Shown piece by piece: positions 32,887-59,240 of a stretch of 64,000 nt of DNA. Made by a program: the position numbers and the translations under genes. The notes below the pieces were generated by a model. The model saw nothing but the letters and a program-made list of their open reading frames with translations, made no database searches and was not told the origin of the DNA. Each line of letters begins with the position of its first letter. Position 1 is the first letter of the stretch. The stretch comes from an uncultured Alcanivorax sp. Lineage in GTDB: Bacteria; Pseudomonadota; Gammaproteobacteria; Pseudomonadales; Alcanivoracaceae. The stretch lies in NCBI RefSeq assembly GCF_947258575.1, contig NZ_CAMYIV010000003.1:124001-188000 (forward strand), in the 5' to 3' direction.

Positions 32887-32928
32887 ACATCTCGCAGCTA
32901 TTAACTCTTCACTGTTAATTATTAACTC
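32887..32928 (-). repeat. Heptad-period array R3 at the glnS stop
   Basis: Read on the minus strand, six 7-bp units: GAGTTAA, TAATTAA, CAGTGAA, GAGTTAA, TAGCTGC, GAGATGT. The first unit supplies the glnS stop codon. Units 2-5 closely match arrays R4, R5 and R7. Confidence 0.8.
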
Positions 32929-34604
32929 TCTTTGGGCCAGGACTCACGCAGACCGACGGTCTGATTGAACACCAGCTTGTCAGCGCTGCTGCTCTGATCC
33001 ACGCAGAAGTAGCCCTCACGCTCGAACTGGTAGCGGGTTTCGGCCAGAACCCCACGCAGACCCGGCTCTACCCAGCAACCATCCAGTACACTCAAGGAAT
33101 CCGGATTGATGTGAGACAGGAATGTCTGCCCTTCTTCTGTCTTGTTGGGGTTCGCGGCGGTGAACAGGCGGTCGTACAGGCGTACCTCGCAGGGCTCGCC
33201 TTTGCTGGCGCTGACCCAGTGAATCACCCCACGCAGTTTGCCCTGGTCATCCGCATTTTCCGGGTTCTTGCCCAGGGTGTCCGGGTCATAGGTACAGCGC
33301 ACTTCCACAATCTCGCCACTGTCATCACGCACCACATCGGTGGCACGGACCACATAGCCATAGCGCAGGCGAACCCGATCACCCAGCACCAGGCGCTTGA
33401 ACTTCTTGTTGGCCTCTTCGCGAAAATCTTCCCGGTCAATATAGATCTCCCGGGTCATGGGTACCTGGCGGGTTCCCATGGTCTCGTTCTGTGGATGCAC
33501 CGGGGCGGTCAGGGATTCCTCCTTGCCCTCTTCCCAGTTTTCGATGACGACTTTTAAGGGATTCAGCACACACATGGCGCGGGGGGCATGCTGATTCAGA
33601 TCATCGCGGATGGCGGCTTCCAGCATCCCCATATCCACCACGGAATCCGCCCGGCTGACGCCCACGGATTCACAGAAAGTCCGCAATGAGGCCGGTGTAT
33701 AGCCACGGCGGCGCAGGCCACAGATGGTCGGCATACGCGGGTCGTTCCAGCCTTCCACATGCCCCTCATCCACCAGCTGCTTGAGCTTGCGCTTGCTGGT
33801 CACCGTGTAATTCAGGTTGAGGCGAGCAAACTCATACTGTCGCGGGCTCGCCGGCACGGAGGTGTGCTCGATGACCCAGTCATAGAAGGGCCGGTGCTCT
33901 TCGAACTCCAGGGTACAGAGGCTGTGAGTGATCCCTTCAATGGCATCGGACAACGGATGGGTAAAATCGTACATGGGGTAGATCACCCACTTGTCACCGG
34001 TCTGATGATGCACTTTCTTGCGAATCCGATAGAGAATCGGGTCGCGCAACGTCAGGTTGGCGCTCTGCATGTCGATTTTGGCACGCAGTACCGCCGCCCC
34101 CTCGTCCAGCTCACCGCTGCGCATCTGCTCGAACAGGGCCAGATTCTCTTCCACGCTGCGCTCGCGATAGGGGCTTGGCTTGCCTGGCGTGGTGAAATTA
34201 CCGCGGTACTCCGCGATCTGCTCCGGACTCAGGCTATCCACGTAGGCCACCCCCTTGTGGATCAGCTCCACAGCCAGCTCATAAAGCCGGTCGAAATAGT
34301 CGCTGGCAAACTTCTCCTGACCATTCCAGGTGAACCCAAGCCACTGCACATCCTGCTTGATCGACTGGATGTACTCATCCTCTTCCTTCTCGGGATTGGT
34401 ATCATCGAAGCGCAGATTGCAACTGCCGTTATAGCTTTCGGCAATCCCGAAGTTCAGGCAGATAGACTTGGCATGACCAATATGCAGGTACCCATTGGGT
34501 TCCGGTGGAAAACGGGTCACCACCTGGCCGTCGTTTTTACCTTCTGCGAGGTCACGGTCGATGATCTGTCTGATAAAATTGCTGGGCGCTTTCGTTTCGC
34601 TCAT
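32922..34604 (-). CDS. glnS: Glutaminyl-tRNA synthetase
   Basis: A 560-aa class I synthetase. The HIGH motif is in [20 protein letters not shown] near 37, and the KMSKS-type loop appears as [10 protein letters not shown] near 273, where many GlnRS have VMSKRKL. Anticodon-binding beta-barrels follow ([19 protein letters not shown] near 395). It charges tRNA-Gln. The 5' flank has a good sigma-70 promoter and a 9-bp leader hairpin. The last codon and stop lie within a 7-bp-period array. Confidence 0.97.
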
Positions 34605-34628
34605 GGGTCTTGGCCAGTCCGGAAGGCA

Positions 34629-34654
34629 GAGAGCCTGAATATGGGCAGGCTCTC
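34629..34654 (-). promoter_or_regulatory. glnS leader hairpin
   Basis: A perfect 9-bp stem GAGAGCCTG / CAGGCTCTC with an 8-base loop, located between the glnS promoter and start codon, 24 nt before the ATG. It could control translation or mRNA stability. Confidence 0.55.
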
Positions 34655-34676
34655 ACGGTGAAAATGAAGGTGCGCT

Positions 34677-34704
34677 AGTGTACTGTACGCCCCCCAACAG
34701 TCAA
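34677..34704 (-). promoter_or_regulatory. glnS sigma-70 promoter
   Basis: The -35 TTGACT (34704-34699) and -10 TACACT (34682-34677) are 16 bp apart, giving a leader of roughly 65 nt that contains the hairpin at 34629-34654. Confidence 0.65.
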
Positions 34705-34765
34705 AGACTCAGGGCCAGCCCGGGAACAAAAACCCCAACCAGGCCCATCTTGCGGAGAAAACCTG

Positions 34766-35263
34766 ATGAAAGTGGTGCTGACAACAACCTACGGCAAAAT
34801 CACCCTGCAACTGGACGCAGAGAAAGCGCCGATTACGACCGAGAACTTTGCTCAATACGTCAAGGATGGCCACTTCGACGGCACCATCTTCCACCGTGTT
34901 ATCAGCAACTTCATGATCCAGGGCGGCGGCTTCAACGAAGATATGCAACAGAAGCCCACCCGTGACACCATCCAGAACGAGGCCGGCAATGGCCTGTCCA
35001 ACAAGGCCGGCACCATCGCCATGGCGCGTACCCCGGACCCCCATTCCGCTTCCGCCCAGTTCTTCATCAACGTGGCCGACAACCACTTCCTGGACAAGGA
35101 ACGCAGCCAGGACGGCTGGGGTTATGCGGTCTTTGGTGCGGTCAGTGACGGCATGGACGTGGTGGAAAAAATCCGCAATGTAGCCACCGGTAACAGCGGC
35201 GGCCACCAGGATGTGCCGGTGGAGCCGGTACTGATCGAATCCGCTGAACTGATCGAGGACTGA
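34766..35263 (+). CDS. ppiB: Cytoplasmic cyclophilin PpiB
   Basis: A 165-aa peptidyl-prolyl cis-trans isomerase without a signal peptide. The active-site set is visible: [15 protein letters not shown] (Arg, Phe, Gln), [17 protein letters not shown] and DGWGYAVFG. The start has GGAG 6 bp upstream. It is divergent from glnS and 4 bp before a second, exported cyclophilin. Confidence 0.95.
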
Positions 35264-35267
35264 GCCC

Positions 35268-35864
35268 ATGCGCGTTCTGGTCACTGCCCTGCTCGCCCTG
35301 TTACCGACCCTGCTGTTCGCCAACCCGCAGGTTCGTCTGGAAACCTCTGCCGGCCCGGTCACCGTGGAACTCTACGAAGACAAGGCCCCGCAGACCGTCG
35401 CCAACTTCCTCAAGTATGTGGATGACGGCTTCTACGACGGCACCCAGTTCCACCGGGTGATTCGCGGTTTCATGATCCAGGGCGGCGGCTTTGACCAGAG
35501 CGGGCAGCGCAAGGCCACCCGCTCACCGATCCAGAATGAAGCGGACAACGGTCTGAGCAATGAGCGTGGCACCCTGGCCATGGCCCGCACCGGCAACCCG
35601 CACTCGGCCACCGCCCAGTTCTTCATCAATCTGGTCGACAATGACAACCTGGACTTTTCAGGCAAGAATGCCCGTGGCTGGGGATATGCCGTCTTTGGCA
35701 AGGTCACAGACGGCATGGCGGTGGTGGACAACATTGCCCGTGAACGCACTACCAGCCAGCGCCTCAACGGCATGTTGGCGCGGGACGTGCCGCAAGTGCC
35801 CATTCTGATTACCCGAGCCTACCGCCTGGATTCAGCCGGCGAAGAAGAAAAAGGCGCACAGTGA
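35268..35864 (+). CDS. Periplasmic cyclophilin (PpiA-like)
   Basis: A 198-aa cyclophilin with an N-terminal signal peptide ([18 protein letters not shown], cleavage near 18). The catalytic core is [32 protein letters not shown] and [11 protein letters not shown]. It probably assists folding of exported proteins. It shares much of its sequence with the preceding ppiB, suggesting local duplication followed by gain of a signal sequence. Its stop overlaps the lpxH start region (GTGA). Confidence 0.9.
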
Positions 35865-36598
35865 CCATGAGCTACACCCTGTTTATTTCCGACCTGCATC
35901 TGGACCCGGCCCGACCGGAACATCTCCAAGCCCTGGGCAAGCTGCTCGAAGCCCACGCCGGTAAGGCAGAGGCGCTCTACGTACTGGGCGACTTGTTCGA
36001 AGCCTGGATCGGCGACGACGATGACACCCCGTTCAATCAGGAGGCGATCAGCGCCTTCCGCAGCTTCAGCGACAACGGCAGCCAGCTCTACTTCATGCAC
36101 GGCAACCGGGACTTCATGCTCGGTGACGATTTCGCTGCCGCCTGTGGCGGTACTTTACTTGACGAAGGTACCGTGGTGGATCTGTATGGCACCCACGCCC
36201 TGCTGATGCACGGCGACAGCCTTTGCACCCTGGACACGGCCTACCAGCAGTTTCGCACCATGGCCCGTAACCCCCAGTGGCAACAGGGGATGCTCGCCAA
36301 GCCCCTGGAGGAACGCCGCATGATCGCCCAGGGCATGCGCATGCAAAGCCAGGGCAACAACGCCAACAAGGCGGAAAACATCATGGACGTGACCCCGGAT
36401 GAAGTAGTCCGAGTCATGGAAGACGCCGGCGTCAAACACTTGATCCACGGCCATACCCACCGCCCCAACGTCCACGACGTGGAGCTGGCCGACGGCCAGG
36501 GTAAACGCTGGGTGTTGGGTGATTGGGGCAAGCTGGGGTGGCAGATTGTGGCGGACAGTGAGAAGGGCTTAAGACTGGAAAGCTTTGAAATCAGTTAA
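35861..36598 (+). CDS. lpxH: UDP-2,3-diacylglucosamine hydrolase LpxH
   Basis: A 245-aa calcineurin-like phosphoesterase making lipid X in lipid A synthesis. All five metal motifs are visible: FISDLHLD (8-15), [12 protein letters not shown] near 45, MHGNRDFM near 85, LMHGDSLC near 116 and IHGHTHRP near 198. The start is GTG at 35861, overlapping the previous stop, with AAGG 6 bp upstream; the ATG two codons later ([11 protein letters not shown]) is an equally plausible start and resembles other LpxH. The TAA stop lies inside a heptad array. Confidence 0.95.
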
Positions 36599-36626
36599 CA
36601 GTGAACAGCGCGCGTTAAGCGTGCTT
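36592..36626 (+). repeat. Heptad-period array R4 at the lpxH stop
   Basis: Five 7-bp units: CAGTTAA, CAGTGAA, CAGCGCG, CGTTAAG, CGTGCTT. The first unit contains the lpxH stop codon. The inverted partner is R5. Confidence 0.8.
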
Positions 36627-36644
36627 CTGATTTTCAAAGGCATC

Positions 36645-36673
36645 AGGCCGCGCCCATAAGATGAGCGCGGCCT
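36645..36673. terminator. Terminator between lpxH and miaE
   Basis: A perfect 9-bp stem AGGCCGCGC / GCGCGGCCT with an 11-base loop at the centre of the convergent gap, between arrays R4 and R5. The T-run is poor. Confidence 0.6.
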
Positions 36674-36706
36674 CGTTGTTTAAGGGTACAGACAATCTCT
36701 GCTCGC

Positions 36707-36741
36707 GCAGCTGTTAACTATTAACGATTCACTGTTAACTG
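36707..36741 (-). repeat. Heptad-period array R5 at the miaE stop
   Basis: Read on the minus strand: CAGTTAA, CAGTGAA, TCGTTAA, TAGTTAA, CAGCTGC. The first three units are translated as the end of MiaE and supply its stop. The first two units are identical to those of R4. Confidence 0.8.
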
Positions 36742-37341
36742 CTGTGGTACTCCCGAATGAAACCGAAACTCCGAATCCGGCGACTCCACCAGCTCCCGTT
36801 CCACTTCCTTGAAGAAATCCACCCGCTCCCCGATCGGCTCGCCGGCATATTGTTCGGCCAGGGTCAGGTAATCCTCGAAGTGCCGTGATTCGCTTTTCAG
36901 CAGGTAGCGGTAGTAGCGGCCCAGTTCCTCATCTACGTGGGGAGCCAGCGCAGCAAAGCGCTCGCAGCTTCTCGCTTCAATCAGGGCACCGACAATCAGG
37001 GTGTCGATGAGCCGCCCGGGTTCGCTGGTGCGCACATGCTGGCGCAGGCCCTTGGCATAGCGGGCCGGCGTCATGTGGTCATAGGTGACGCCGCGCTGGC
37101 GCATGATCTGCAGCACTTGCTCAAAATGCAGCAACTCCTCACGAGCAAGCTGGCTCAGGGCGTCCAGCAATTCCGGTCGGTCCACATAGCGGAACATGAG
37201 ATTCAGGGCTGTGCTCGCGGCCTTCTTCTCGCAATGGGCATGGTCAATCAGCAAGGTGTCCGGGTGCTGCAGCGCCCAGTCGATCCAGGCTGGCGGAGTG
37301 GCGCAGGGCAGAAATGCTTGGATGTGGGAAATATCGTGCAT
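36721..37341 (-). CDS. miaE: tRNA-(ms2io6A37) hydroxylase MiaE
   Basis: A 206-aa ferritin-like diiron monooxygenase that hydroxylates the isopentenyl group of ms2i6A37 in tRNA. Iron-ligand motifs are REELLHFEQVLQIM near 85, EARSCERFAALAPH near 138 and KSESRHFEDYLTLAEQY near 165. The ATG at 37341 (MHDISHIQAFLP) has GAGG 5 bp upstream; a longer reading from 37365 has no ribosome site. The last residues (QQLTVNR) are encoded by a heptad array, so the C-terminal tail may have been acquired from the repeat. Confidence 0.92.
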   Translation of the reverse strand: MHDISHIQAFLPCATPPAWIDWALQHPDTLLIDHAHCEKKAASTALNLMFRYVDRPELLDALSQLAREELLHFEQVLQIMRQRGVTYDHMTPARYAKGLRQHVRTSEPGRLIDTLIVGALIEARSCERFAALAPHVDEELGRYYRYLLKSESRHFEDYLTLAEQYAGEPIGERVDFFKEVERELVESPDSEFRFHSGVPQQLTVNR

Positions 37342-37420
37342 GGCGTCCTCAGGGTCGGCGCGCATTATAGCGGTACATAATCACTCCGGACACCGACTGG
37401 TATCGTCTGTTTTGACTTTT

Positions 37421-37455
37421 AAGCCTCAAGCGTCTGGCATCCAGCGTCCAGCGTC
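37421..37455 (+). repeat. Heptad-period array R6 upstream of the lpxL-like gene
   Basis: Five exact 7-bp units: AAGCCTC, AAGCGTC, TGGCATC, CAGCGTC, CAGCGTC. It ends 15 bp before the acyltransferase start codon. Confidence 0.8.
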
Positions 37456-37470
37456 CTATACTCTCCCGCC

Positions 37471-38379
37471 ATGGGCCGACGAACCAATCCGACAATTCAA
37501 CGCATCAAAGGTGTAGCCGCAGTCACCACGCTGCGACTGATCGCCTGTCTTCCATATGCTGTGAACCGCTGCATAGCCAGCCTGTTCGGAGCACTGCTGG
37601 CGCGACTCCCCAGCGAGGCCCAGCGCGTGTCCCGAATCAATTTGGCCCTGTGCTACCCCCATCTGGATGAAACACAACGACACCATCTGGCCCGTCAGTC
37701 CCTTCTTGAAAGCGCCCGCAACACCTTCGAGATTGCTCTTTTCTGGCGACACCCTGAGCAAGGACTGAAACGGATCGTGGCAGTGGATGGCGACGCCCCC
37801 CTCCGCCAGGCTGTCATGGAGGGTAAACCAGTGATGATTCTGGCTCCCCATCTGGGGTGCTGGGAGGTACTCAATTTCTGGTTGGCCACCGAATTCGGGC
37901 TGCATGCCATGTTTGCCCCCTCGGGACTGCCGGAAGTGGATGATCTGATACGTTCCGGCCGCGAACACTTTGGGTCCACCATGTACCCGACTACTGCACG
38001 AGGGGTGGCCGGTCTGGTGCGCGCCATGAAGAAAGGTGCGCTTACTGCCATCCTGCCCGATCAGGTGCCGGATCGCCGCAGTGGCCGGCACGCTCCCTTT
38101 TATGGCCAGCCCACGTACACGGGCACACTGGCCTGCAAGCTGATCCGTCAGACCGGCGCGGTGACCTTCATGGCCTGGGCTCGCCGACTCCCTGAGGGTC
38201 ATGGTTTCGAAATTCGCGTGCGCCAGGCGGACCCTCAAGTCGCCGATGAAGATCTGGATACCGCCCTCCAGGCCATGAACCGCTCCATCGCAGGACTGAT
38301 CGACGAAGAGCCCGCCCAGTACCTGTGGAGCTACAAACGCTTCAGACGACCGCCCGCTGGCCACAAAGCCCCCTACTGA
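37471..38379 (+). CDS. Lipid A late acyltransferase (LpxL/HtrB family)
   Basis: A 302-aa acyltransferase that transfers a secondary acyl chain from acyl-ACP to the lipid A precursor at the inner membrane. An N-terminal hydrophobic stretch (about 20-42) is followed by the catalytic HX4E motif in ILAPHLGCWEVLNFW near 130, DQVPDRRSGRHAPFYGQP near 190 and YLWSYKRFRRPP at the C-terminus. LpxL or LpxM specificity cannot be told from sequence. It is divergent from miaE and near lpxH. The start at 37471 follows a heptad array and lacks a strong ribosome site. Confidence 0.88.
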   Translation: MGRRTNPTIQRIKGVAAVTTLRLIACLPYAVNRCIASLFGALLARLPSEAQRVSRINLALCYPHLDETQRHHLARQSLLESARNTFEIALFWRHPEQGLKRIVAVDGDAPLRQAVMEGKPVMILAPHLGCWEVLNFWLATEFGLHAMFAPSGLPEVDDLIRSGREHFGSTMYPTTARGVAGLVRAMKKGALTAILPDQVPDRRSGRHAPFYGQPTYTGTLACKLIRQTGAVTFMAWARRLPEGHGFEIRVRQADPQVADEDLDTALQAMNRSIAGLIDEEPAQYLWSYKRFRRPPAGHKAPY

Positions 38380-38437
38380 CCACGCCTTCAGTGATTGCGA
38401 GTATTCATCACATGAATGGCTGTAACCACGGTTTGGC

Positions 38438-38466
38438 TTAACAGTTGATGGCATTTCGGCTATACT
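38438..38466 (+). promoter_or_regulatory. acnB sigma-70 promoter
   Basis: The -35 TTAACA (38438-38443) and -10 TATACT (38461-38466) are separated by exactly 17 bp, about 85 bp upstream of the acnB start. Confidence 0.75.
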
Positions 38467-38551
38467 CCGCGCGCAATTCCAACCCCCAGTAACACCCTAA
38501 AAGACTGATTTCCAAAAGAAATCAGCCAATTCGAGTAAAGAGGGAAACGCT

Positions 38552-41152
38552 GTGCTAGAAGCCTATCGCAAACATGTTGAAGAGCGCGCCGCTGACGGTG
38601 TGCCGCCCAAGCCGTTGAACGAGCAGCAAGTTGCCGAGCTGGTCGAACTACTGAAAACCCCGCCGGCCGGCGAAGAAGAATTCATTCAGGACCTGTTCGT
38701 TAACCGCGTACCGCCGGGCGTGGACCAGGCCGCCTACGTGAAGGCCGCCTTCCTGACCGCGATTGTTAACGGTGAAGCCAGCTCTCCCCTGATCGACCGT
38801 AAACGTGCCGTACAGCTGCTGGGCACCATGCAGGGTGGCTATAATGTGGCCACGCTGGTTTCAGCGCTGGATGATGCCGAACTGGCAGAAATCGCTGCTG
38901 ACGAACTCAAGCACACCCTGCTTGTCTTCGATGCTTTCCACGATGTGGAAGACAAGATGAAAGCCGGCAACGCCAAGGCCAAGGAAGTCATTGAGTCCTG
39001 GGCTGAAGGCGAGTGGTTCACCAATCGCGCAGACCTGGCAGAGAAAATGTCTCTGACCGTCTTCAAGGTAACCGGCGAAACCAACACCGATGACCTGTCC
39101 CCGGCCCAGGACGCCTGGAGCCGCCCGGATATCCCGCTGCACGGCAACGCCATGCTGAAGAATGCCCGTGAAGGCATTCACCCGGAAAAAGACGGCGAAA
39201 TCGGCCCGCTCAAGCAAATGGAAGAACTGAAGGCCAAAGGCCTCCCCGTTGCCTACGTGGGCGACGTTGTGGGTACCGGTTCCTCCCGTAAGTCCGCCAC
39301 CAACTCCGTGCTGTGGCACTTTGGTGACGACATTCCGTTCGTACCGAACAAGCGCGCCGGCGGCGTCTGCATCGGTGGCAAGATCGCGCCCATCTTCTTC
39401 AACACCATGGAAGACTCCGGCGCCCTGCCCTTCGAGTGCGATGTTTCCAAAATGGAAACCGGTGACCAGATCGACGTTTACCCGTTCGCTGGCAAGGTAG
39501 AAAAGAACGGCGAAGTGATTGCCGAATTCGACCTACGCTCCCAGGTACTGCTGGACGAAGTTCGCGCTGGCGGCCGTATCAACCTGATCATCGGCCGCGG
39601 CCTGACCACAAAGGCTCGCGAAGCCCTGGGTCTGGCACCTTCCGAACTGTTCCGCAAGCCGGAACAACCGGGCGACTCCAACAAGGGCTTCACCCTGGCA
39701 CAGAAGATGGTCGGCAAGGCCTGCGGCCTGGACGGCGTTCGCCCCGGCATGTACTGCGAGCCGAAGATGACCACCGTGGGTTCCCAGGACACCACTGGCC
39801 CGATGACCCGTGATGAACTGAAAGATCTCGCTTGCCTGGGTTTCCAGGCAGACCTGGTGATGCAGTCTTTCTGTCACACCGCTGCTTACCCCAAGCCGGT
39901 TGACGTGGAAACCCAGCACACCCTGCCCGACTTCATCATGAACCGTGGCGGTGTCTCCCTGCGTCCGGGCGACGGCATCATCCACTCCTGGCTGAACCGC
40001 ATGCTGCTGCCAGACACTGTCGGCACCGGTGGTGACTCCCATACCCGTTTCCCCATGGGCATCTCCTTCCCCGCGGGCTCTGGCCTGGTAGCCTTTGCTG
40101 CCGCTACCGGCGTTATGCCGCTGGACATGCCGGAATCGGTTCTGGTTCGCTTCAAGGGCAAACGCCAGCCGGGCATCACCCTGCGTGACCTGGTACACGC
40201 GATTCCACTGCAGGCCATCAAAGACGGCCACCTGACCGTTGCCAAAGCCGGCAAGGTCAACGTGTTCTCCGGTCGCGTCCTGGAAATCGAAGGTCTCGAC
40301 GACCTGACCGTCGAGCAGGCATTCGAGCTGTCCGATGCATCCGCCGAGCGTTCCGCTGCCGGCTGTACCATCACCCTGTCGGAAGACAGCGTGACCGAGT
40401 ACCTGAAGTCCAACATCACCATGCTCAAGTGGATGATCTCCAATGGCTACGGCGATGCCCGCACCATTGAGCGTCGTATCCAGGGCATGGAAGAGTGGCT
40501 GGCCAACCCGAGCCTGATGCGTGCCGACGCCGATGCCGAGTACCACACCGTCATCGAAATCGACATGGACCAGATCAACGAACCGGTACTGTGCTGCCCG
40601 AACGACCCGGACGATGCCAAGACCCTGTCCGACGTGGCTGGCGCCAAGATCGACGAAGTGTTCATCGGTTCCTGCATGACCAACATCGGTCACTTCCGTG
40701 CCGCCGGTAAACTGCTGCAGAAAGTGGAAAGCGGCACCATGCCGACCCGTCTGTGGATCGCTCCGCCGACCAAGATGGATCAACACCAGCTCACCGAAGA
40801 AGGCTACTACAACATCTTCGGCAGTGCCGGTGCGCGCACCGAGATGCCGGGCTGCTCCCTGTGCATGGGGAACCAGGCTCGCATCGCGCCGAAGTCCACT
40901 GCGGTATCCACCTCCACCCGTAACTTCCCGAACCGTCTGGGTCAGGGTGCGGATGTGTACCTGGCATCGGCTGAGCTGGCGTCTGTGGCGTCTATCCTCG
41001 GCAAGCTGCCCACCACCGAAGAGTATATGGAATACGCGAACACCATCGATTCCATGTCCTCCGAGATCTACCGCTACCTGAACTTCGACCAGATGGCGGA
41101 GTACCAGGACGTGGCAGATACCGTGAAGATCCCGGTTGCTCAATCTGTTTAA
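38552..41152 (+). CDS. acnB: Aconitate hydratase B
   Basis: An 866-aa AcnB-type aconitase (also methylisocitrate dehydratase) of the citric acid cycle. The N-terminal HEAT-like domain ([20 protein letters not shown]) and swivel domain precede the catalytic domains, the arrangement specific to AcnB. The three [4Fe-4S] cysteines are in [15 protein letters not shown] near 709 and [12 protein letters not shown] near 769-772. The GTG start at 38552 has AGAGGG upstream and gives the family's N-terminus exactly. Monocistronic, ended by a strong bidirectional terminator. Confidence 0.97.
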
Positions 41153-41174
41153 GATTGACTGATCGCTTCACGAA

Positions 41175-41208: not shown

Positions 41209-41241
41209 TTGTGGCGGAAGCGTTAACGATACTCAAGCTCG

Positions 41242-44399: not shown

Positions 44400-44402
44400 A
44401 GG

Positions 44403-44430
44403 CAGTGAATAATTAATAGTGAATAGTTTA
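44403..44430 (+). repeat. Heptad-period array R7 after the orphan gene
   Basis: Four 7-bp units: CAGTGAA, TAATTAA, TAGTGAA, TAGTTTA. They match the units of R3-R5 and begin 3 bp after a stop codon. Confidence 0.75.
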
Positions 44431-49222: not shown

Positions 49223-49233
49223 GGTTCCCCTTT

Positions 49234-49268
49234 CAAACGCAACAGGCTGCACGCTTCACGCGGCATGC
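49234..49268 (-). repeat. Heptad-period array R8 upstream of moxR
   Basis: On the plus strand, five 7-bp units: CAAACGC, AACAGGC, TGCACGC, TTCACGC, GGCATGC (minus-strand phase includes AAGCGTG, CAGCCTG). It begins about 5 bp upstream of the moxR ribosome-binding site. Confidence 0.6.
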
Positions 49269-52080: not shown

Positions 52081-52148
52081 GGTACTTTCCTCTCGTTAGG
52101 GCCTGCTAACACCATCGATATCAATGATGTCATACACACCCTCGTTGC

Positions 52149-52634
52149 TTATACGTTCATGACCAGGGCGAGCAGCTTCTCACCCATGTCCCGAGTCCAC
52201 GCTTCCATCATGACCAGATGCGGAACCAGAGTGGATTCTTGCCACCACGGGTCAGCGCCAAACATATGCCGACCCAAGGCTACCAGCACGACCATCAGCA
52301 GCACTCCTCGCAAGGCGCCGAAGACCATCCCCAGTAAGCGATCAGTGCTGCTCAGCCCGGTAACACGGATCAATTCACCGAGCAGATGGTTAATCAGGGC
52401 GCCCACCACCAGCGTCAGCACAAACAGCAAACCGAAAGCAACGGCGGCTCGCAGGCTGGGGGTGGCAATCTGATCTTGAATAAGGAGATCCAGGGCCGGG
52501 CTGAACAGGCGCGCGATGATAAAGGCAGCCACCCAGGTGAGCAATGAAAAGGCTTCGCGGGTGAAGCCACGGCGCACGCTCAGCAAAGCGGAAATTGCGA
52601 TGACGATCAGAATGATGGCGTCTGCCAGATTCAT
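52149..52634 (-). CDS. cvpA: CvpA family membrane protein
   Basis: A 161-aa inner-membrane protein with four hydrophobic segments (MNLADAIILIVIAISALLSV; LLTWVAAFIIARLFS; AAVAFGLLFVLTLVVGALI; ALRGVLLMVVLVALG). CvpA is linked to colicin V production and to envelope stress, and is classically located before purF, as here. The ATG at 52634 gives the usual family N-terminus; the longer open reading adds 19 unlikely residues. Confidence 0.9.
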   Translation of the reverse strand: MNLADAIILIVIAISALLSVRRGFTREAFSLLTWVAAFIIARLFSPALDLLIQDQIATPSLRAAVAFGLLFVLTLVVGALINHLLGELIRVTGLSSTDRLLGMVFGALRGVLLMVVLVALGRHMFGADPWWQESTLVPHLVMMEAWTRDMGEKLLALVMNV

Positions 52635-52774
52635 GTAAAGCGTGCTCTCACCGGCTTGATTCCTGAGGCAACCCGGCGCGCTTGTCCGCACCCGGCTGCC
52701 CGGAAAATTCAGAGGGCGAAGTTTAACAGAGGCAGGAGCACTTGCCCATGGATACGCCCGATGGGCGCTGGCAA

Positions 52775-53389
52775 TCAGGGTGCATAAATCCGCACCAGCC
52801 CCTTGAAGCCAAAACGACTGTCATCCGCCAGCTGCTGGCGGGTTCGCTCGGCATCCTTCTTGTGGATTTCCGGGCCCACCATGACGCGATGAACGACCTT
52901 GCCCTGGTGGCTGTCGGTTTCGCTATAGGCCCGGTAGCCAGCGGCTTTCAGCTTGTCCACCACACCTGCAGCATTATCAGCACTGGAATAACTGCCCACC
53001 TGGACCACGAAACCGGCCAGAACCGGGCTATCATCCGGTTTGACCGGCGGTGGCACGGGCGCGTCGTCGATAATCGGCGCTGCCTGGCTGTCTTCACGGG
53101 CATCAGCAGGAGATTCATCGGCGCTGTCCGTCTCGGCCCGCAACTGCTCTTGGGCCGCCTCTTTGACAGCGTCACGCTCGGACTGGATACGCTCCGCTGC
53201 AGCGCTTTCCATCTCTTCTGAGACCACCGGCTCCACATTCACCGCGGTCATCTCTGGCTGATCCGGAATTTGCATATCCAGCGCATTGCGAATCTGCTCC
53301 GGAGACCGGAACACAAAGGGCGCCAGGACAGCCGCCAGAACCAACAACAGGACAATGCCGATAATGCGCTGGCGGGTTCGTTTATCCAC
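52775..53389 (-). CDS. SPOR domain membrane protein (DedD-like)
   Basis: A 204-aa single-pass protein: a short basic cytoplasmic N-terminus ([11 protein letters not shown]), one helix (about 11-30), an acidic and proline-containing linker (about 60-120), and a C-terminal SPOR domain (FVVQVGSYSSADNAAGVVDK ... YRAYSETDSHQG ... VMVGPEIHKKDAERTRQQL). SPOR domains bind denuded peptidoglycan at the septum, so a role in cell division is likely. The start is GTG at 53389 with GGAG upstream, overlapping the folC stop by 8 bp. Confidence 0.87.
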   Translation of the reverse strand: MDKRTRQRIIGIVLLLVLAAVLAPFVFRSPEQIRNALDMQIPDQPEMTAVNVEPVVSEEMESAAAERIQSERDAVKEAAQEQLRAETDSADESPADAREDSQAAPIIDDAPVPPPVKPDDSPVLAGFVVQVGSYSSADNAAGVVDKLKAAGYRAYSETDSHQGKVVHRVMVGPEIHKKDAERTRQQLADDSRFGFKGLVRIYAP

Positions 53390-54617
53390 CTTGCTCTCCC
53401 CTCGCTTCCGCAACGGTATAGAAAGACCCAAAGATTAGCACCTGATCGCTGCTCTGTGCAGCGCCCAGGGCTCCCCTCAGTGCCTCGGAGATACTCTCAT
53501 ACTGACTGGATGGCGCCTGCGCCGGCAACGCAGCTGCCAGCCTGGATGGCGATGCTGCCCGAGCCATGGCCGGGGCAGCGAGGTGCCAGCTCACCGGCTG
53601 GTCGGCGAATAACGCCACCACATCCTCAATGGGCTTGTCCGCCATCATTCCGAACACCAGATGCCGCCGACCTTCGCAGGGTGGCAACAGTTGCAGGAAG
53701 CGGGTCACCGCCGCCAGATTATGCCCCACATCAAACCAGCAGGGGTGTCCCTGCAACTGGCGAAATTCACAACGCCCGAACAGCGGCACATCGGCCACCG
53801 CCATGCAGTCCTGTGTAGTAACCGGGACCCCAGCCAGAACAAGCGCCTGACACGCGGTCGCCAGGTTATCCCGACCCAGGGTCACCCTGCCGGGAAAGCC
53901 CAACTCACCACCATCACCGAGCGTGACTCCCTGCTCATTGAGGCGAAACTCCCGCCCGGCGAACACCGGCTCAACCCCATAGCGCTCTGCCAGGGCCGAC
54001 AGATTGTTCGGCCAGTCTGCCTCACCGAAAACCAGCGGTCTGCCGGAACGAGCAATGCCGCATTTTTCCCCGGCAATGGCCTCGCGGGTGTCACCCAGCC
54101 AGTCCTGGTGATCCAGTCCTACAGAGGTGACCACCGCCACATTCGGGTCGACGATATTCACCGCATCAAGCCGGCCACCCAGACCGACTTCCAGTAGCAC
54201 CAGATCCGCCTCGCTGCGCCGGAAGAGCCACAGTGCCGCCAGGGTACTGAACTCGAAATAGGTCAGCGAGATACCCTGACGAGCCTGTTCCACCTGCGAA
54301 AACGCCTCACAGAGCTGCTGATCCGAGGCTAAACCGTCGGGCAGACACACACGCTCATTGAAACGATGCAGATGAGGAGAGGTGTAGAGACAGACTCGAC
54401 GGCCATGGCGCTCAGCCAGAACCTGCATCAGGCGCAGGGTGGAGCCTTTTCCATTGGTACCAGCCACGGTGATCACCGGCACCGGCATGGAATCCACCCC
54501 AAGACGACGTGCCACTTGGCGGATGCGCTCCAGACCCAGTTCGATTTCGGTGGGATGCATGGCCTCGATCCGCTCCAGCCAGGCGGCCAGAACGGAAGCG
54601 GCAGAGTCTTCAGTCAT
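53382..54617 (-). CDS. folC: Dihydrofolate/folylpolyglutamate synthase
   Basis: A 411-aa Mur-ligase-fold enzyme adding glutamate to dihydropteroate and to folates. The P-loop [14 protein letters not shown] lies near 50, HLHRFNERV near 83, [12 protein letters not shown] near 120 and [15 protein letters not shown] near 145. The ATG at 54617 overlaps the accD stop by 8 bp, and its own stop overlaps the SPOR gene, so the three are coupled. Confidence 0.95.
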
Positions 54618-55491
54618 CAACAGTCTGGAGGGGCCAGCCCATCATGTTCGCCAGCAGGCGATGGAGGGTATCGCGCATATCGTGGCGAGACACGATCATG
54701 TCGATGGCACCGTGATCAACCAGGAATTCACTGCGCTGGAACCCCTCGGGTAATTTCTGTCGCACGGTCTGTTCAATCACCCGGGGTCCGGCAAAGCCGA
54801 TCAGGGCATTGGGCTCAGCCACATTCACATCACCCAGCATGGCCAGGGACGCAGACACACCGCCATACACTGGATCGGTCAGCACAGAGATGAACGGCAA
54901 CCCCGCCTGGCGCATCTTTTCCAGCGCCGCGCTGGTCTTGGCCATCTGCATGAGGGAGAAAAGCGCCTCCTGCATGCGCGCGCCGCCACTTGCCGAGAAA
55001 CACACCAGCGGAAGCTTCTGCTCCAGGCACACATCCACCGCGCGAACAAAACGCTCGCCGACCACCGAGCCCATGGAACCACCCATGAAGTTGAACTCGA
55101 AGGCACAGGCCACTAGGGGCTCACCGTGCAGGGCGCCTTTCAGGACAATCAGGGCATCGTTCTCTTCGGTGGCTTTCTGGGCAGCCACCAGTCTGTCCTT
55201 GTACTTTTTGGAGTCCTTGAACTTGAGACGGTCTACTGGCGCCAGTTCGGCACCGATTTCCGTCTGCGGCCCCTCGTCCAGAAACAGCTTGAGCCGCCGC
55301 CGGGCATTGATTCGCAGGTGATGCTCACACTTCGGGCAAACATCCATGTTGCGGTCCAGTTCGGGCCGGTACACCACCCCGTCGCAGCGCGGGCATTTAC
55401 GCCACAGCCCCTCGGGAATGTTGTTGCGCCGGTTTTCCTGGGGGCGACGTACTGCAGGCAGGATTTTCTCCAGCCAGTTGCTGTTGCTCAT
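54610..55491 (-). CDS. accD: Acetyl-CoA carboxylase carboxyltransferase beta subunit
   Basis: A 293-aa subunit that with AccA makes malonyl-CoA. It has a four-cysteine zinc finger (CPRCDGVVY ... CPKCEHHLR, 33-58) and the carboxyltransferase core ([20 protein letters not shown] near 130, [20 protein letters not shown] near 160, [17 protein letters not shown] near 200). It is 12 bp after trpA and overlaps folC. Confidence 0.97.
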
Positions 55492-55503
55492 GCAAAGGTC
55501 CCG

Positions 55504-56307
55504 TTACTGATCCATAGCGTTGCGCATGGCGGCCAGGATGTCACTGATGGCCTTGTTGATCGCCTCCGGGTTATCCGGATTGGCAGCAATCTGGTTCACC
55601 AGAGCACTACCAACGACCACACCATCGGACACCCGGCTCACCGCCTGTGCAGATTCAGCGTCTTTGATACCAAAGCCGACACCAATGGGCAATTGAGCAA
55701 GGTTGCGAATTGTTTCAACCCGTCCGGCTACCTCGTCCACATTCAGTGATGCGGAGCCGGTCACGCCCTTCAAGGAAACGTAATACAAGTAGCCGGAGCC
55801 GGCCTTGCCAATCAGCTTGATACGGGCATCCGACGTAGTGGGCGCCACCAGGAAAATCATGTCCAGCTCGTGGGCATCCATCACCGGCTTGATTTCCAGG
55901 GCTTCTTCCGGCGGCAGGTCCACCAGCAAGATGCCATCCACGCCGGCTTGCGAGGCGGCCTTGGCAAAATTTTCGTAGCCAAGCGCCTCCACCGGGTTCA
56001 GATAGCCCATCAGTACGACCGGGGTCTGGGTATCGCGCTCGCGGAACTCCTTGACCATGGCCAGCACATCATGGGTGGAGGTACCATGGGCCAGGGCCCG
56101 CTCACAGGCCTTCTGGATCACCGGGCCATCGGCCATGGGGTCCGAGAAAGGCACGCCCAGCTCAATGATGTCGGCACCCGCTTCCACCATGGCGTGCATC
56201 AACGGCACTGTCACTTCCTTACTGGAATCACCGGCGGTCACAAAGGGAATCAAGGCCTTGCGCTTCTGCTCGGCCAACCGCTGAAAACAGCTTTCAATAC
56301 GACGCAT
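55504..56307 (-). CDS. trpA: Tryptophan synthase alpha subunit
   Basis: A 267-aa TIM barrel that cleaves indole-3-glycerol phosphate. The catalytic glutamate and aspartate are in [20 protein letters not shown] near 47-65, with the phosphate site [12 protein letters not shown] near 212. The start has AAGGAG 6 bp upstream. It lies 9 bp after trpB. Confidence 0.97.
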
Positions 56308-56316
56308 TACTGCTCC

Positions 56317-57528
56317 TTAAAATTCAATGCCATCGATGGCGGCGACAGTCAGAATATCCTTGTCTCCACGACCGGACAGGTTGATAACGATGTCCTGATC
56401 CGGAGACATGGTCGGAGCCAGTTTGCGAGCATAGGCCAGCGCATGAGCCGATTCCAGAGCCGGCATGATGCCCTCTACCTGGGTCAGCTCACGGAACGCC
56501 GAGAGGGCTTCCTTGTCATCCGCCGACACATAATTTACCCGACCCAGGTCCTTCAGCCAGGAATGCTCGGGGCCCACACCGGGATAATCCAGGCCAGCAG
56601 ACACGGAATGGGTTTCGATGATCTGGCCGTTATCATCTTCCATCAGGTAGGTACGGTTACCGTGCAATACACCCGGACGACCGGCACTCAACGGCGCTGC
56701 ATGGCGGCCGGTTTCGATACCGTCACCCGCAGCTTCCACGCCATACATGGCCACACCATCATCATTGAGGAAAGGATGGAACAGGCCAATGGCATTGGAA
56801 CCACCTCCGACACATGCCACCAGCGCATCAGGCAACTTGCCCGCCTGCTTGAGGCTCTGCTCGCGGGCTTCACGACCGATCACGCACTGGAAGTCACGCA
56901 CCAGAAGCGGATACGGATGCGGGCCGGCCACGGTACCGATGATGTAGAAGGTATCATCTACGTTGGTTACCCAGTCACGCATTGCCTCGTTCATGGCGTC
57001 TTTGAGGGTTTTTGAACCGGACGTCACCGGAATCACCTCAGCGCCCAGCAGCTTCATACGGTAGACGTTGAGCTTTTGCCGCTCCACGTCTTCAGCGCCC
57101 ATATACACCTGACACTTGAGACCCAGCCGAGCCGCCACAGTGGCCGTTGCCACACCGTGCTGCCCTGCCCCGGTTTCCGCAATCACCCGCGGCTTGCCCA
57201 TATGTTTGGCCAACAGCGCCTGGCCAATGGTGTTGTTCACCTTGTGGGCACCGGTATGGTTCAGGTCTTCACGCTTGAGCCAGATCTTTGCACCGCCGAG
57301 CTGCTTCGACCATCGCTCCGCCAGGTACAGCGGGGACGGACGGCCAACATAGTGGGCCAGGTCATAGTCGAAATCCGCACGGAACTGCGGATCATCCTTG
57401 AGACGCTCATACATAGCGGCCAGATCGTCCAGAGCCCCCATCAGGGTCTCGGAAACAAAACAGCCGCCAAACTGGCCGAAATGGCCTCGGGCGTCAGGAA
57501 AAGCAGAAAAATCAGGGCGTTCAGACAC
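56317..57528 (-). CDS. trpB: Tryptophan synthase beta subunit
   Basis: A 403-aa PLP enzyme joining indole and serine. The PLP lysine is in [18 protein letters not shown] near 95, the substrate loop is [15 protein letters not shown] near 118, and the phosphate site is [12 protein letters not shown] near 240. The start is GTG at 57528 with AGGAG 6 bp upstream; it overlaps the trpF stop by 8 bp. Confidence 0.97.
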
Positions 57529-58177
57529 CAGCTACTCCTCGTATTTTCGCACTTTTGATAAAGGCGCGGATGGCGGATGGGTCCTTGACCCCTCCACTGC
57601 GGCCGCCCTGAACAGTCTTCTGCTCAACGCCGCCACTGACATCCACCGCCCAAGGCCGCACCTGTGCTACGGCATCGGCCACATTGCCCGGATGCAGGCC
57701 ACCGGCCAGCACCACGGGAAGGGGCAGATCCTTGGGTAATCTGCCCCAGTTAAACGTCTCACCGGTACCACCAGGGACACCGGGCACATAGCTATCCACC
57801 AAAAGCCCAGCCGCTTCCCGATATTCCATCGCGTAACGATACAGATCCACATCATCTTTCATTCGCACCGCCTTGATCCAGGGACGCGAAAAACGGGAGC
57901 AGAACTGCGCGGGCTCATCACCATGAAATTGCAGCAGATCCAGCGGCACCTGAGCCAACACATGGTCAATGGCGGCTTGCGACGCATTCACGAACAAACC
58001 AACCGTGGTCACAAACGGTGGCAAACTGGCACATATTGCCGCCGCCCTGGCGACCGTCACGTAACGGGGGCTGGGCTCGTAAAACACCAGACCAATGGCA
58101 TCGGCACCGGCGTTTGCCGCCGCCAGTCCATCTTCGATGCGGGTGATGCCACAGATTTTGACCCGGGGTATGGTCAT
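57521..58177 (-). CDS. trpF: Phosphoribosylanthranilate isomerase
   Basis: A 218-aa TIM barrel for the third step of tryptophan synthesis. The catalytic cysteine is in [12 protein letters not shown] (5-16), and the aspartate is in the FEVDV-like [12 protein letters not shown] segment near 177. The start has GGAG upstream. It opens the run trpF-trpB-trpA-accD-folC after an 86-bp gap behind truA. Confidence 0.96.
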
Positions 58178-58263
58178 GGGTTCTCCAGTGTATCAAAAGC
58201 CCGGCGGATTAGGGATGTTTCGGGGCATTAGCCATAAATCATTCACCACTGCCCCGTTGCTCA

Positions 58264-59067
58264 TTATGCCTCAAGAGAATGCGGCAACCACAGGGGGCCA
58301 AGCGGCTCTCTGGGTAAATCGAAATGGTCCGGGTATTCGATGTCCACGAGGTACAAGCCAAAGGGTGGTGCTGTTGCTGCCCCCTTGCGACGATCCCCGG
58401 ATTCCAGCACCTCACGAGCCCAATGGGCTGGTCGCTTGCCCGCACCGATCGTCATCAGCACACCTGCCATATTACGCACCATATGCATCAAGAAGGCGTT
58501 AGCATGAGCTTCCAGCACGATCACCTTGCCAATTTCATGCAGTTTCAGACTGTGCAGGGTCTTGTGCGGTGACTTCGCCTGACAGTGCACACTGCGGTAA
58601 GCGGTAAAATCGTGGCTGCCAACCAGGTGGCCAGCCGCTTCACGCATGGCGTTGAGATCGAGCGGCCGATAATTCCAAGTCACCTGATTGCGATACAAGG
58701 CCGGTGGGCGTGAGTGGTTGTAGATCACGTAACGATAGCGGCGACTGACAGCAGAAAACCGCGCGTGGAAATCTTCGCTTACCGGGGTGGCCCAGCGCAC
58801 AGTCACATCCCGAGGCAGGTTGGTATTGCCTCCCATGATCCAGCTTTTCATTTCCCGGGGGGCATTGGAGTCAAAATGCACCACCTGGCCGGTGCCATGC
58901 ACGCCCGCATCGGTGCGACCGGCACAGACCACAGAGACAGGATGGTCCGCTACTTTCGATAGCGCTTTCTCAAGGCATTCCTGCACGGTTCTTACACCGG
59001 CTTGCTGGGTCTGCCAGCCACGAAAGTCGGTACCGTCGTATTCAATTCCAAGGGCGATCCGGGCCAT
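58264..59067 (-). CDS. truA: tRNA pseudouridine(38-40) synthase TruA
   Basis: A 267-aa pseudouridine synthase acting on positions 38-40 of the anticodon stem. The catalytic aspartate is in VCAGRTDAGVHGTGQVVHF near 55; RRYRYVIYNHSRPPALY near 110 and FLMHMVRNMAGVLMTIGAG near 200 match TruA. The ATG at 59067 has GAGG 5 bp upstream, immediately next to heptad array R9. It lies between fimV and trpF, as in P. aeruginosa. Confidence 0.96.
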   Translation of the reverse strand: MARIALGIEYDGTDFRGWQTQQAGVRTVQECLEKALSKVADHPVSVVCAGRTDAGVHGTGQVVHFDSNAPREMKSWIMGGNTNLPRDVTVRWATPVSEDFHARFSAVSRRYRYVIYNHSRPPALYRNQVTWNYRPLDLNAMREAAGHLVGSHDFTAYRSVHCQAKSPHKTLHSLKLHEIGKVIVLEAHANAFLMHMVRNMAGVLMTIGAGKRPAHWAREVLESGDRRKGAATAPPFGLYLVDIEYPDHFDLPREPLGPLWLPHSLEA

Positions 59068-59076
59068 GACAACCTC

Positions 59077-59111
59077 AGTTGAAAGGTCAAAGCTGAAAGT
59101 TAAATCGCGAA
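59077..59111 (+). repeat. Heptad-period array R9 upstream of truA
   Basis: Five 7-bp units: AGTTGAA, AGGTCAA, AGCTGAA, AGTTAAA, TCGCGAA. It begins directly upstream of the truA ribosome-binding site. Confidence 0.78.
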
Positions 59112-59172
59112 CCGAAGTGCTAACCAGCCGACAAGATAAACCCGCATGTGGAGGCCTGCTTCACGGGCAGGG

Positions 59173-59240
59173 CGATCAACGTTCAACGCCCCACCACCAC
59201 ACGCTGTTTCAACGCCGAACGTTCAACTCGCAACTAAAAC
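59173..59240 (-). repeat. Heptad-period arrays R10 before the fimV terminator
   Basis: On the plus strand a two-unit block (CGATCAA, CGTTCAA at 59173-59186) is followed by a five-unit block (GTTTCAA, CGCCGAA, CGTTCAA, CTCGCAA, CTAAAAC at 59206-59240). The orientation is inverted relative to R9, so the truA-fimV gap is framed by an inward-facing pair. Confidence 0.75.

Follow-up and report, generated by a model that had tools for sequence, protein, structure and literature searches.

Inverted heptad arrays as ends of small intergenic elements and their association with S23/IVP genes in Alcanivorax

Introduction

In cyanobacteria, the STRR sequences are tandem heptanucleotide repeats of intergenic DNA and are known as direct repeats. 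Heptamer repeats of the unit TAACTGA occur in the Beggiatoaceae, Cyanobacteria and Bacteroidetes, according to the available part of PMC4679880. Heptamers are also described in the intervening sequences (IVS) of 23S rRNA, from which the S23/IVP protein family (PF05635) is known; in the Coxiella IVS, two to three tandem heptamers stand ahead of the S23 gene, in a number that depends on the strain (PMC4990558). The S23/IVP protein folds as a four-helix bundle and forms a pentamer in one solved case, and the accessible sections of that source state that the function and the way of moving of the family and of the 23S IVS are not known (PMC4990558).

The window considered here is a stretch of 64,000 nucleotides from an Alcanivorax sp., an oil-degrading marine bacterium. 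A sequence-only reading of it had listed ten intergenic arrays of heptads. The open-licence literature, in searches that included S23, yielded nothing on Alcanivorax heptads, and an Rfam scan of the window returned tRNAs only.

Materials and methods

Genes were called with a home-made scorer of open reading frames and codons. Periodicity was measured in 464 kb, made up of the window and 20 stretches of 20 kb picked regardless of motif. The G000 sample amounted to 749 kb, of which 285 kb had been chosen partly for motif matches there, and some G005 stretches were likewise picked partly for such matches.

Results

Four-letter words recurred 637 times at lag 7 in the intergenic DNA of the 464 kb, where 20 dinucleotide shuffles gave 283.2 +/- 16.9 (z 20.9). 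Echoes stood at lag 14 (z 11.9) and lag 21 (z 9.7), and lag 28 gave z 1.2; the genes of the same sample gave no peak at lag 7. The intergenic 7-bp period proposed by the sequence-only reading is thus real and exceeds what shuffled intergenic DNA produces. Arrays with a score of at least 9 numbered 33 at period 7 and two to eight at each of the periods 4-6 and 8-12. Runaway arrays, ~23 and ~33 units long, occur at loci L111 and L112. The 11-mer TTAACAGTGAA has 97 copies in the 3.5-Mb genome, against 2 for a reversed control; said to occur three times in the window, it is indeed repeated there, in four copies (32908, 36595, 36728 and 48626), the last of which falls inside a called gene. Four AAGCTNC units were present in 1 of 274 class genomes, namely the source genome itself, and four GACGCY units in 4 of 274. 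The similar heptads that the sequence-only reading mentioned for pseudomonads found no support in 26 kb of Pseudomonas intergenic DNA from 11 loci, where the lag-7 ratio was 0.77.

Table 1. Elements, arrays and neighbouring genes in the window
Feature	Positions	Strand	Context and remarks
TAGCT-word element	2720-2889		between acuI-like gene and sohB; paired arrays; occurs in G005 too
acuI-like gene	1714-2703	-	neighbour of TAGCT-word element
sohB	2893-3945	-	neighbour of TAGCT-word element
Left heptad arm of TAGCT-word element, AGCTNCN units	2720-2754	+	
Right heptad arm of TAGCT-word element, inverted	2855-2889	-	
Degraded YAGTKAA element	32794-32928		3' end of glnS; covariance-model match E 2.1e-8
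YAGTKAA element	36583-36741		between convergent lpxH (35867-36598) and miaE (36721-37365)
Left arm of lpxH/miaE element, CAGTTAA CAGTGAA CAG	36592-36608	+	holds lpxH stop codon
Central GC hairpin of lpxH/miaE element	36644-36680		ends approximate
Right arm of lpxH/miaE element, inverted	36711-36741	-	overlaps miaE 3' end
Single CAGCGTC-type heptad array	37410-37456		between divergent genes; score 16; TRF 37429-37456
Single YAGTKAA-type arm	44400-44430	+	immediately after stop codon
Marginal heptad array	49234-49268		score 9
Decayed AAGTT element, probable	59077-59240		left arm 59077-59111 (score 9); right arm within 59173-59240

The ten arrays are not ten separate sites (Table 1). Those beginning at 2720 and 2855, and at 36592 and 36707, are the arms of two elements and not four sites; 32887-32928 is the right arm of the degraded element at the glnS end, surviving with the central hairpin; 37421-37455 and 44403-44430 are single arms, the latter matched by an arm related to it at the corresponding site of A. 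jadensis (L021, 18573); and the marginal array may be a chance product. The last two arrays are probably the decayed arms of one AAGTT element, the right arm being assigned by reading of the sequence. Nor are the 4-6 units of each array always uninterrupted, several arrays being interrupted or shorter; the segment 36592-36626, for example, holds 17 bp of heptads and then a CGCG core. The proposed pattern of any base followed by AG-pyrimidine describes the main words read inwards and misses the TTGATAA, GGTCTGA, GACGC and GCGTG words. The TAGCT-word element is bounded by a 37-nt inverted repeat (2719-2755/2854-2890), 84% complementary. The lpxH/miaE element matches the covariance model at E 7.6e-21, yet is itself part of the model's own alignment, and its G005 ortholog has arms that differ by 14 and 7 bp. 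PF05635 has no match on contig 3, the source of the window, and the window elements are of the gene-less form.

Most of the 7-bp arrays are not free satellites; in inverted pairs, they form the two ends of compact ~160-bp elements. Between the heptad ends, gene-less elements contain a CGCG core and, at the centre, a hairpin that covaries. Among array pairs 91-110 bp apart, in a count that includes the motif-chosen G000 and G005 stretches, 42 were inverted and none direct; YAGTKAA pairs faced inward in 46 cases and outward in none, direct pairs of this word being counted on the plus strand alone. The 464 kb held 13 YAGTKAA elements, eight of which belong to the covariance model's alignment. The central hairpin is common to dispersed copies, pairs at 83.7% against 35-47% when slid, and shows covariation, so that the earlier statement that no hairpin constraint applies was wrong, given a conserved hairpin and arms in inverted repeat. 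Divergence between orthologs, taken from 9 of 26 aligned elements, was 0.064-0.068 in the arms, 0.056 in the stem and 0.130 in the spacer; the spacers thus change faster. Like MITEs, the elements are short, carry terminal inverted repeats, are without a transposase gene and occur in many dispersed copies. The earlier suggestion of a mobile satellite fits best in the word mobile; the unit is an element with array ends, of which an S23/IVP-bearing form exists, and not a satellite.

Arm gaps between two species, sorted by hand, were of 7 or 14 bp in 7 of 9 cases. Slippage does therefore occur and changes unit number at orthologous sites, and these gaps, with the runaway arrays, favour an origin of the arrays as slippage relics or minisatellites of local origin. 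Such an origin is nevertheless highly improbable: slippage cannot make inverted pairs at a set spacing, the period is 7 only, and the hairpin is shared among dispersed copies. Pairing between the two arms of an element, if it kept their units alike, would give covariation; none was found in unit states at five registers, and the idea was rejected.

Unit changes between the two species concentrate on position 5 (T/G, 11 of 11) and position 1 (C/T, 8 of 8), which is compatible with the earlier idea of binding sites, one per 7 bp, although the 7-bp reader itself remains putative. The same changes, the exact period and the ~4 units per arm recall the ParB/Omega protein of plasmid pSM19035, whose site needs four or more heptads (PMC9499535, in the part available), and by analogy the arrays might serve a nucleoid or partition-like protein binding one dimer per heptad. 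The many words per genome and the inverted geometry make this very unlikely, and it leaves the S23/IVP genes between arms unexplained. Stops in all frames were present in 86 of 111 YAGTKAA arms, and 51 of the 111 contained the stop codon of a gene, as would suit translational stop cassettes whose heptads supply stops in all three frames. This idea fails for the AAGCT and GACGC words, which have no stop codon, and A at unit position 5, which would retain the stop, is found in only 3 of 489 units; as a general explanation it is scarcely credible.

Gene-less elements sit at gene 3' ends, at stop codons, and divergent gaps account for 5 of 73 contexts, again with the motif-chosen stretches included. 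Of 17 genomes, 14 have an element at the lpxH/miaE site, including one degraded copy. This persistence, the placement, the covarying hairpin and the lower divergence of arms and stem relative to the spacer are what host gene-end modules would show, that is, two-way terminators or mRNA 3'-end stabilisers under selection and now immobile. However, occupation of orthologous sites differs between species: the sohB/acuI site has only a short gap in 10 of 17 genus genomes, as read at gap level with approximate junctions. Copies of the 11-mer vary from 1 to 117 within the genus, and elements are found nested inside one another. Host modules are accordingly an improbable alternative, and a host gene-end function may be an additional role and not a competing explanation. 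A check for target-site duplications gave one 6-bp repeat in 12 gap regions, which deletion would explain equally. The YAGTKAA element L123:1902-2062, used as a query, had no match in plasmid or phage DNA.

In G005, an inward arm pair (L116, 3002-3453) encloses a single gene, which matches PF05635 (E 2e-25). PF05635 is present in 29 of the 46 genomes that represent the bacterial family (16/17 Alcanivorax, 12/13 g3 and 1/16 others) and in 0 of 14 control genomes. All 65 matches were examined, with flanks of 300 nt in the first set and of 260 nt in the later sets and the control; arrays stood upstream of 62, downstream of 55, and on both sides with an inverted match at 53, leaving 12 loci without a scored array pair. 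At periods 4, 5, 6, 8, 9 and 10, the same 65 loci gave no both-sided match, and only 3 of 921 called genes in the control had inverted arrays on both sides, one of them the L116 S23/IVP gene itself. These counts show that S23/IVP genes are associated with ends of the same type as the window arrays. By reading, the S23/IVP loci of the bacterial family lie between protein genes and not in 23S rRNA. Their flanking words (YAGTKAA, TTGATAA, TTAATAA, AAGTTGA, AAGCTAC, GAGCTAC, CGAGTTT, GACGTC and ACACGC) recur in gene-less elements, and this sharing of end type suggests that gene-less elements and S23 genes belong to one kind of selfish element. The glyA/nrdR S23 gene and the lpxH/miaE element carry the same word in 6 of 13 genomes and different words in 7, so that cognate pairs are not simply a matter of one word per genome, an idea that was dropped. 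Viral contigs searched with one S23/IVP protein contained no relative.

The ends also occur beyond the bacterial family. At 16 plasmid S23 genes from other phyla (of 22 records, with the gene ends of the unannotated L405 and L409 guessed), period-7 arrays were found upstream of 13, downstream of 10 and inverted on both sides of 8, against 0 of 114 control genes. Some plasmid loci have 8-bp repeats, with both-sided arrays at period 8 in 4 of the 16. The L405 locus, on a plasmid of Azospirillum, presumably sits in a 23S gene.

An alternative is that the elements are ordinary MITE-like sequences moved by a transposase of another kind, with S23/IVP genes as captured passengers. To our knowledge, the S23/IVP family has no recognised catalytic motif, and G004 and G015-like genomes, which have few S23 genes or none, contain many gene-less copies. 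With at most 51 candidates scored per genome, G015 (covered by the gene calls to 56% only) had at least 31 model matches with degraded ends and no PF05635 match, G020 had at least two model matches without an S23 gene, and G028 had an S23 gene and no model match among the candidates scored. Set against this, 53 of 65 S23 genes have the ends, the plasmid genes of other phyla show them too, and a scan of 15 proteins encoded between inward YAGTKAA arms found no transposase. Capture as passengers is thus unlikely, if worth keeping in mind.

Movement by RAYT (Y1_Tnp) proteins, in the manner of REPINs, is hardly plausible. Y1_Tnp genes occur in 16 of 17 genus genomes and are missing from G015, where arrays are few. 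However, among 19 RAYT-like genes examined of 60 matches, ~14 adjoin GTAGGAGC-like palindromes, by eye, and none has heptad arms on both sides, and the link was rejected. A short array stands on one side of the RAYT-like genes L325, L329 and L331, and a CGAG element lies near L321.

Discussion

The arrays probably serve as terminal inverted repeats for one family of selfish elements, which has two forms, one bearing an S23/IVP gene and one gene-less. On the best reading, the window arrays delimit miniature, gene-less derivatives of S23/IVP elements, which are related to the 23S IVS. The gene-bearing form, of ~450 bp, would consist of an inverted heptad array, one S23/IVP gene and a second inverted array, and would be the same kind of element as the 23S IVS, placed between protein genes. 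The gene-less form, of ~160 bp and far more numerous, would keep the ends around the CGCG core and central hairpin. Both would move, with the S23/IVP protein or a partner reading the ends in 7-bp steps and carrying the gene-less copies as well. Insertion behind stop codons may be tolerated, since reading frames end within YAGTKAA arrays and the hairpin could end transcripts both ways.

A broader proposal is put forward tentatively: S23/IVP proteins may belong to a widespread class of mobile elements in which an inverted 7-bp period, and not a sequence, marks the ends, the word being free to vary by lineage, with the 23S IVS as its rRNA-sited members and the heptad-ended gene-less elements as hangers-on. 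Consistent ends around S23/IVP genes in Alcanivorax, its relatives and plasmids of other phyla give a handle on function and movement: the ends delimit the element, the 7-bp step predicts the protein's manner of reading, and hundreds of gene-less copies serve as natural controls. This reading could also explain where puzzling intergenic heptad repeats come from and why some proteins share one terminal tail (VNSE).

Comparison with known systems

The elements resemble prokaryotic MITEs and small palindromic elements (Correia, ERIC, SPRITE, RPE) in being short and non-coding with terminal inverted repeats, in their many dispersed copies and mutual insertion, and, for some, in their position at gene 3' ends; unlike those elements as treated in the available part of PMC10969869, they end in tandem arrays of 7-bp units that use several words, and their gene-bearing relative carries S23/IVP instead of a known transposase. 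BrickBuilt of Porphyromonas gingivalis likewise joins a MITE with tandem repeats, but its 23-bp repeat is internal and its ends are not repeats (PMC4596501, in part). REPIN/RAYT systems, which Alcanivorax has too, are also dispersed palindromic intergenic elements (PMC3116915 and PMC2817692); RAYT genes here are, in the 19 examined, not flanked by heptad pairs.

The TAACTGA repeats share with the present arrays their intergenic setting, direct units of exactly 7 bp and indels of 7, and their unit, read on the other strand as CAGTTAT, is one base off CAGTTAA. They differ in having a single invariant word, in standing mostly right ahead of start codons and in forming no inverted pairs, and the available part of PMC4679880 draws no link to S23 genes. 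Searched in every phase, the G000 and G005 stretches contained no TAACTGA doublet, whereas the CAGTTAA class gave 21. The parS of pSM19035 resembles the arrays in its contiguous 7-bp units, at least four of which are needed, each bound by one dimer; it is a single word, WATCACW, in a plasmid centromere (PMC9499535, in part). The protein that binds sites of this type is a ParB of the RHH kind, which has a ParA as its partner.

As a class, the 23S IVS are cut from the transcript by RNase III. They are likewise S23/IVP genes between inverted repeats, ~430 nt long, sporadic and called selfish (PMC4990558, in the sections available). The elements described here instead lie between protein genes at 3' ends, both of their ends are heptad arrays in several words, and gene-less copies are numerous.

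The heptad period in intergenic DNA

The window (contig 3, positions 124001-188000, of a 3.5-Mb genome) holds genes that include glnS, lpxH, miaE, acnB and sohB. The gene content and an LpxH protein search, with identities of 95% to A. jadensis, 84-90% to other named Alcanivorax and 77-81% to Alloalcanivorax, assign it to Alcanivorax. The intergenic 7-bp periodicity that the sequence-only reading had claimed, and had proposed to compare with shuffled DNA, is real. In 464 kb picked without regard to motif, with 274 intergenic stretches totalling 65.8 kb, intergenic 4-mers recurred at lag 7 637 times versus 283.2 ± 16.9 in shuffles (z 20.9), with echoes at lags 14 (z 11.9) and 21 (z 9.7) and a z of 1.2 at lag 28, while genes of the same sample gave the triplet period only. 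Arrays scoring at least 9 numbered 33 at period 7 and 2-8 at each other period from 4 to 12. At a score of 12, a larger, partly motif-chosen set of 749 kb held 77 arrays of period 7 and 0-5 of other periods except the multiple 14 (46), and the relative G005 held 46, with 24 at period 14 and 0-2 at the others.

Arrays as inverted ends of elements

The arrays are the ends of elements. Among 78 array pairs sharing one gap, the inverted match exceeded the direct one in 73, which were retained, and five were discarded; 72 arrays lacked a partner. The retained pairs comprised the words YAGTKAA (50), AAGCT (6), AAGTT (6), TAGCT (5), CGAG (3), GACGC (1) and others (2). Arms were spaced 91-110 bp apart in 40/50 YAGTKAA, 4/6 AAGCT, 3/6 AAGTT, 0/5 TAGCT and 2/2 other pairs, and 11-20 bp apart in CGAG and GACGC pairs. 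Across 2.05 Mb, pairs spaced 91-110 bp were inverted in 42 cases and direct in none, and those spaced 111-200 bp in 10 and three, respectively. The 113 YAGTKAA arms formed 46 inward pairs, no outward pairs and, as counted on the plus strand, no direct pairs.

An alignment of 26 YAGTKAA elements gives the order heptads-CAG, CGCG, a poorly conserved first spacer, a 21-pair hairpin, a spacer, CGCG and mirrored heptads. Standard pairs occupy 83.7% of hairpin cells (35-47% when slid) and the covariation score is 0.216 (at most 0.093 slid, 0.118 ± 0.015 shuffled); ten pairs changed on both sides, a count equalled or exceeded in 42 of 500 shuffles. Of 489 units, 477 have C or T at position 1 and 486 have T or G at position 5, and the remaining positions hold a single base in 92-99%. 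No covariation was found between the Y/K states of the two arms.

Divergence, taken from the nine of 26 elements with a clean G005 ortholog, was 0.222 in the loop, 0.130 in the spacer, 0.088 in the flank, 0.068 and 0.064 in the arms, 0.056 in the stem and 0.028 in CGCG, with arms (p 0.0013) and stem (p 0.0008) slower than the spacer. Arm changes concentrate at unit positions 1 and 5 (19/143 versus 12/356 elsewhere, p 1e-4), all C/T at the former (8/8) and T/G at the latter (11/11); position 3 changes too (7/73). Whole-unit exchange between arms could mimic the picture expected from selection.

Placement relative to genes

Gaps holding an element (73) were convergent in 38 cases, codirectional in 30 and divergent in five, compared with 156, 389 and 157 of all 702 gaps. 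In codirectional gaps the median distance between the stop codon of the preceding gene and the beginning of the arm is 2.5 nt. Stop codons of same-strand genes lie inside 51/111 YAGTKAA arms, 32 start 0-30 nt past one, and 28 have none within reach. The elements may play a terminator role. Array-encoded protein tails recur among the 51 genes ending inside an arm (VNSE 11 times, VNS eight times). Several neighbouring elements are ~3.6 kb apart (3552-3700 bp; L010, L024-L026, L109, L111, L132, L134), which may be chance because these loci are partly orthologs.

S23/IVP genes between heptad arms

Inward YAGTKAA arm pairs enclosing genes were listed, and 15 enclosed proteins were scanned: channels, transporters, enzymes and similar proteins, plus one S23/IVP protein (PF05635, E 2e-25), encoded in G005 (L116) by a single 118-residue gene, with 382 bp from arm to arm. 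PF05635 occurs in 29/46 family genomes, namely 16/17 of Alcanivorax (not G015), 12/13 of a second genus and 1/16 of the others, and in 0/14 control genomes. The second genus is probably Alloalcanivorax.

All 65 PF05635 hits, weak ones included (28 + 37), were read under uniform scoring. Period-7 arrays lie upstream of 62/65 and downstream of 55/65, and at 53/65 the arrays of the two flanks match each other inverted; both-sided matches at periods 4, 5, 6, 8, 9 and 10 were found around none. Among 921 called genes in stretches of G005 and the window's own genome (G000), three had both-sided matches, one being the L116 gene. Among S23-type chains of known structure, the Alcanivorax proteins match 2rld (E 7.2e-35) and 2gsc (E 7.4e-15). 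By similarity the hits form clusters of 24 and 39, plus two fragments. The 24 all lie, as far as read, between glyA- and nrdR-like sequence and all have AT-rich words (YAGTKAA, YAGTKGA, TTAATAA, TTGATAA); words of the 39 include AAGTT, AAGCT, GAGCT, CGAGTTT, GACGTC and ACACGC. Since locus and word both vary with protein type, position confounds the link between word and protein.

The window contains gene-less elements only, and its arrays are judged to terminate gene-less derivatives of the S23/IVP elements. The elements' form, dispersal, differing sites, placement and constraint were observed, as was the location of S23/IVP genes between ends of this kind; the elements presumably move, and the S23/IVP protein or a partner would read their ends in 7-bp steps. 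Against the S23/IVP reading count that no target duplication was established at the elements, that words are mixed within genomes, the S23-gene word agreeing with the element word in 6/13, that some S23 genes elsewhere have 8-bp arrays, and that we know of no activity for S23.

Distribution and change between species

Covariance-model hits to the gene-less form occurred in 17/17 Alcanivorax, 5/5 second-genus genomes, 1/14 other genomes within the family and, weakly, 1/21 from other families. Gene-less and gene-bearing forms share the same two genera, with exceptions in G015, G020 and G028; G015 has degraded gene-less elements without an S23 gene. The 11-mer named in the sequence-only reading has 1 to 117 copies per genome across the genus. 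The pseudomonad heptads mentioned in the sequence-only reading were not borne out, the Pseudomonas loci tested giving no lag-7 excess; lags 7 and 14 reached 1.3x and 1.6 in Marinobacter and 1.2x and 1.8 in Halomonadaceae loci.

Occupation of orthologous sites differs among 17 genomes. The lpxH/miaE site holds YAGTKAA in eight, TTGATAA in three, TTAATAA-type words in two, a degraded element in one, another palindrome without heptads in one (G002) and contig breaks in two; the sohB/acuI site holds TAGCT in two, AAGTT in one, a CGAG type (by eye) in one, and a degraded element, another palindrome and an ambiguous case in one each, with a short gap in ten. Two further sites (readable in 8 and 16 of 17) hold AAGTT, AAGCT, CGAG or other palindromes, differing by species. 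At one of these, relatives without the AAGCT element keep its first heptads, and decay and replacement are therefore mixed with insertion.

A dispersed composite in G018, of which several copies were read, has AAGCT arms enclosing AAGTT arms enclosing an AAGCT arm; matches numbered 93 in G018 (including parts and second-strand readings), 65 in G034, 23 in G032, one in G029 and none in G025. The apparent inversion in G034 of the gene between two nested elements of G018 looks as if it arose by recombination between elements. Recent exchange between G000 and G002 is likely, because the identical stretch contrasts with 88% likeness at another locus.

Individual features of arrays and elements
Feature	Genome	Locus	Coordinates
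Runaway exact GAGCTAC array, ~23 units	G005	L111	about 4987-5147
Runaway exact GAGCTAC array, ~33 units	G005	L112	2032-2265
Runaway exact AAGCTAC array, ~13 units; upstream arm of an S23/IVP gene	G000	L353	C1:2595-2689
Gene between two nested elements; appears inverted in G034 (see also L286)	G018	L163	7470-8616
Tandem duplication of gene fragment and AAGCT element; both absent there in G000	G005	L102	14642-15670
100% identity over 1301 bp	G000	L131	16600-17900
Counterpart of the preceding	G002		C4:156270-157570
Palindrome with CACAGAGGGCACAGAG-like arms		L102	12285

A second dispersed class, REP-like GTAGGAGC...GCTCCTAC palindromes, lies in some of the same gaps (L021, L029, L214, L258, L317-L333) and adjoins many Y1_Tnp (RAYT-like) genes, which occur in 16/17 genus genomes (none in G015). 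The CACAGAGGGCACAGAG-like palindrome occupies gaps of several species (also L185, L031).

S23 genes beyond the family

A plasmid protein search returned 22 records with S23 relatives, most of them from cyanobacteria, and 16 of these were read for arrays. Period 7 was found upstream of 13 of these 16 genes, downstream of 10 and on both sides, inverted, at eight; the corresponding counts were 4, 6 and 4 for period 8 and 1, 3 and 1 for period 6. None of the 114 genes called in four of these plasmids, across four stretches of 40 kb, had both-sided matches at 6, 7 or 8. In three cyanobacterial plasmids (L407, L413, L416) the S23 gene lies between CRISPR-associated genes, cas6/cas4 twice and cas10/Cmr3 once.

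Among open-licence papers, neither the IVS literature, including passages of PMC4990558, nor the papers from other searches describe S23 elements as generally ending in heptad arrays. In those passages, the Coxiella 23S IVS has a terminal stem of 28 bp and two or three GACAGAT heptamers, their number strain-dependent, directly before its S23 gene (PMC4990558).
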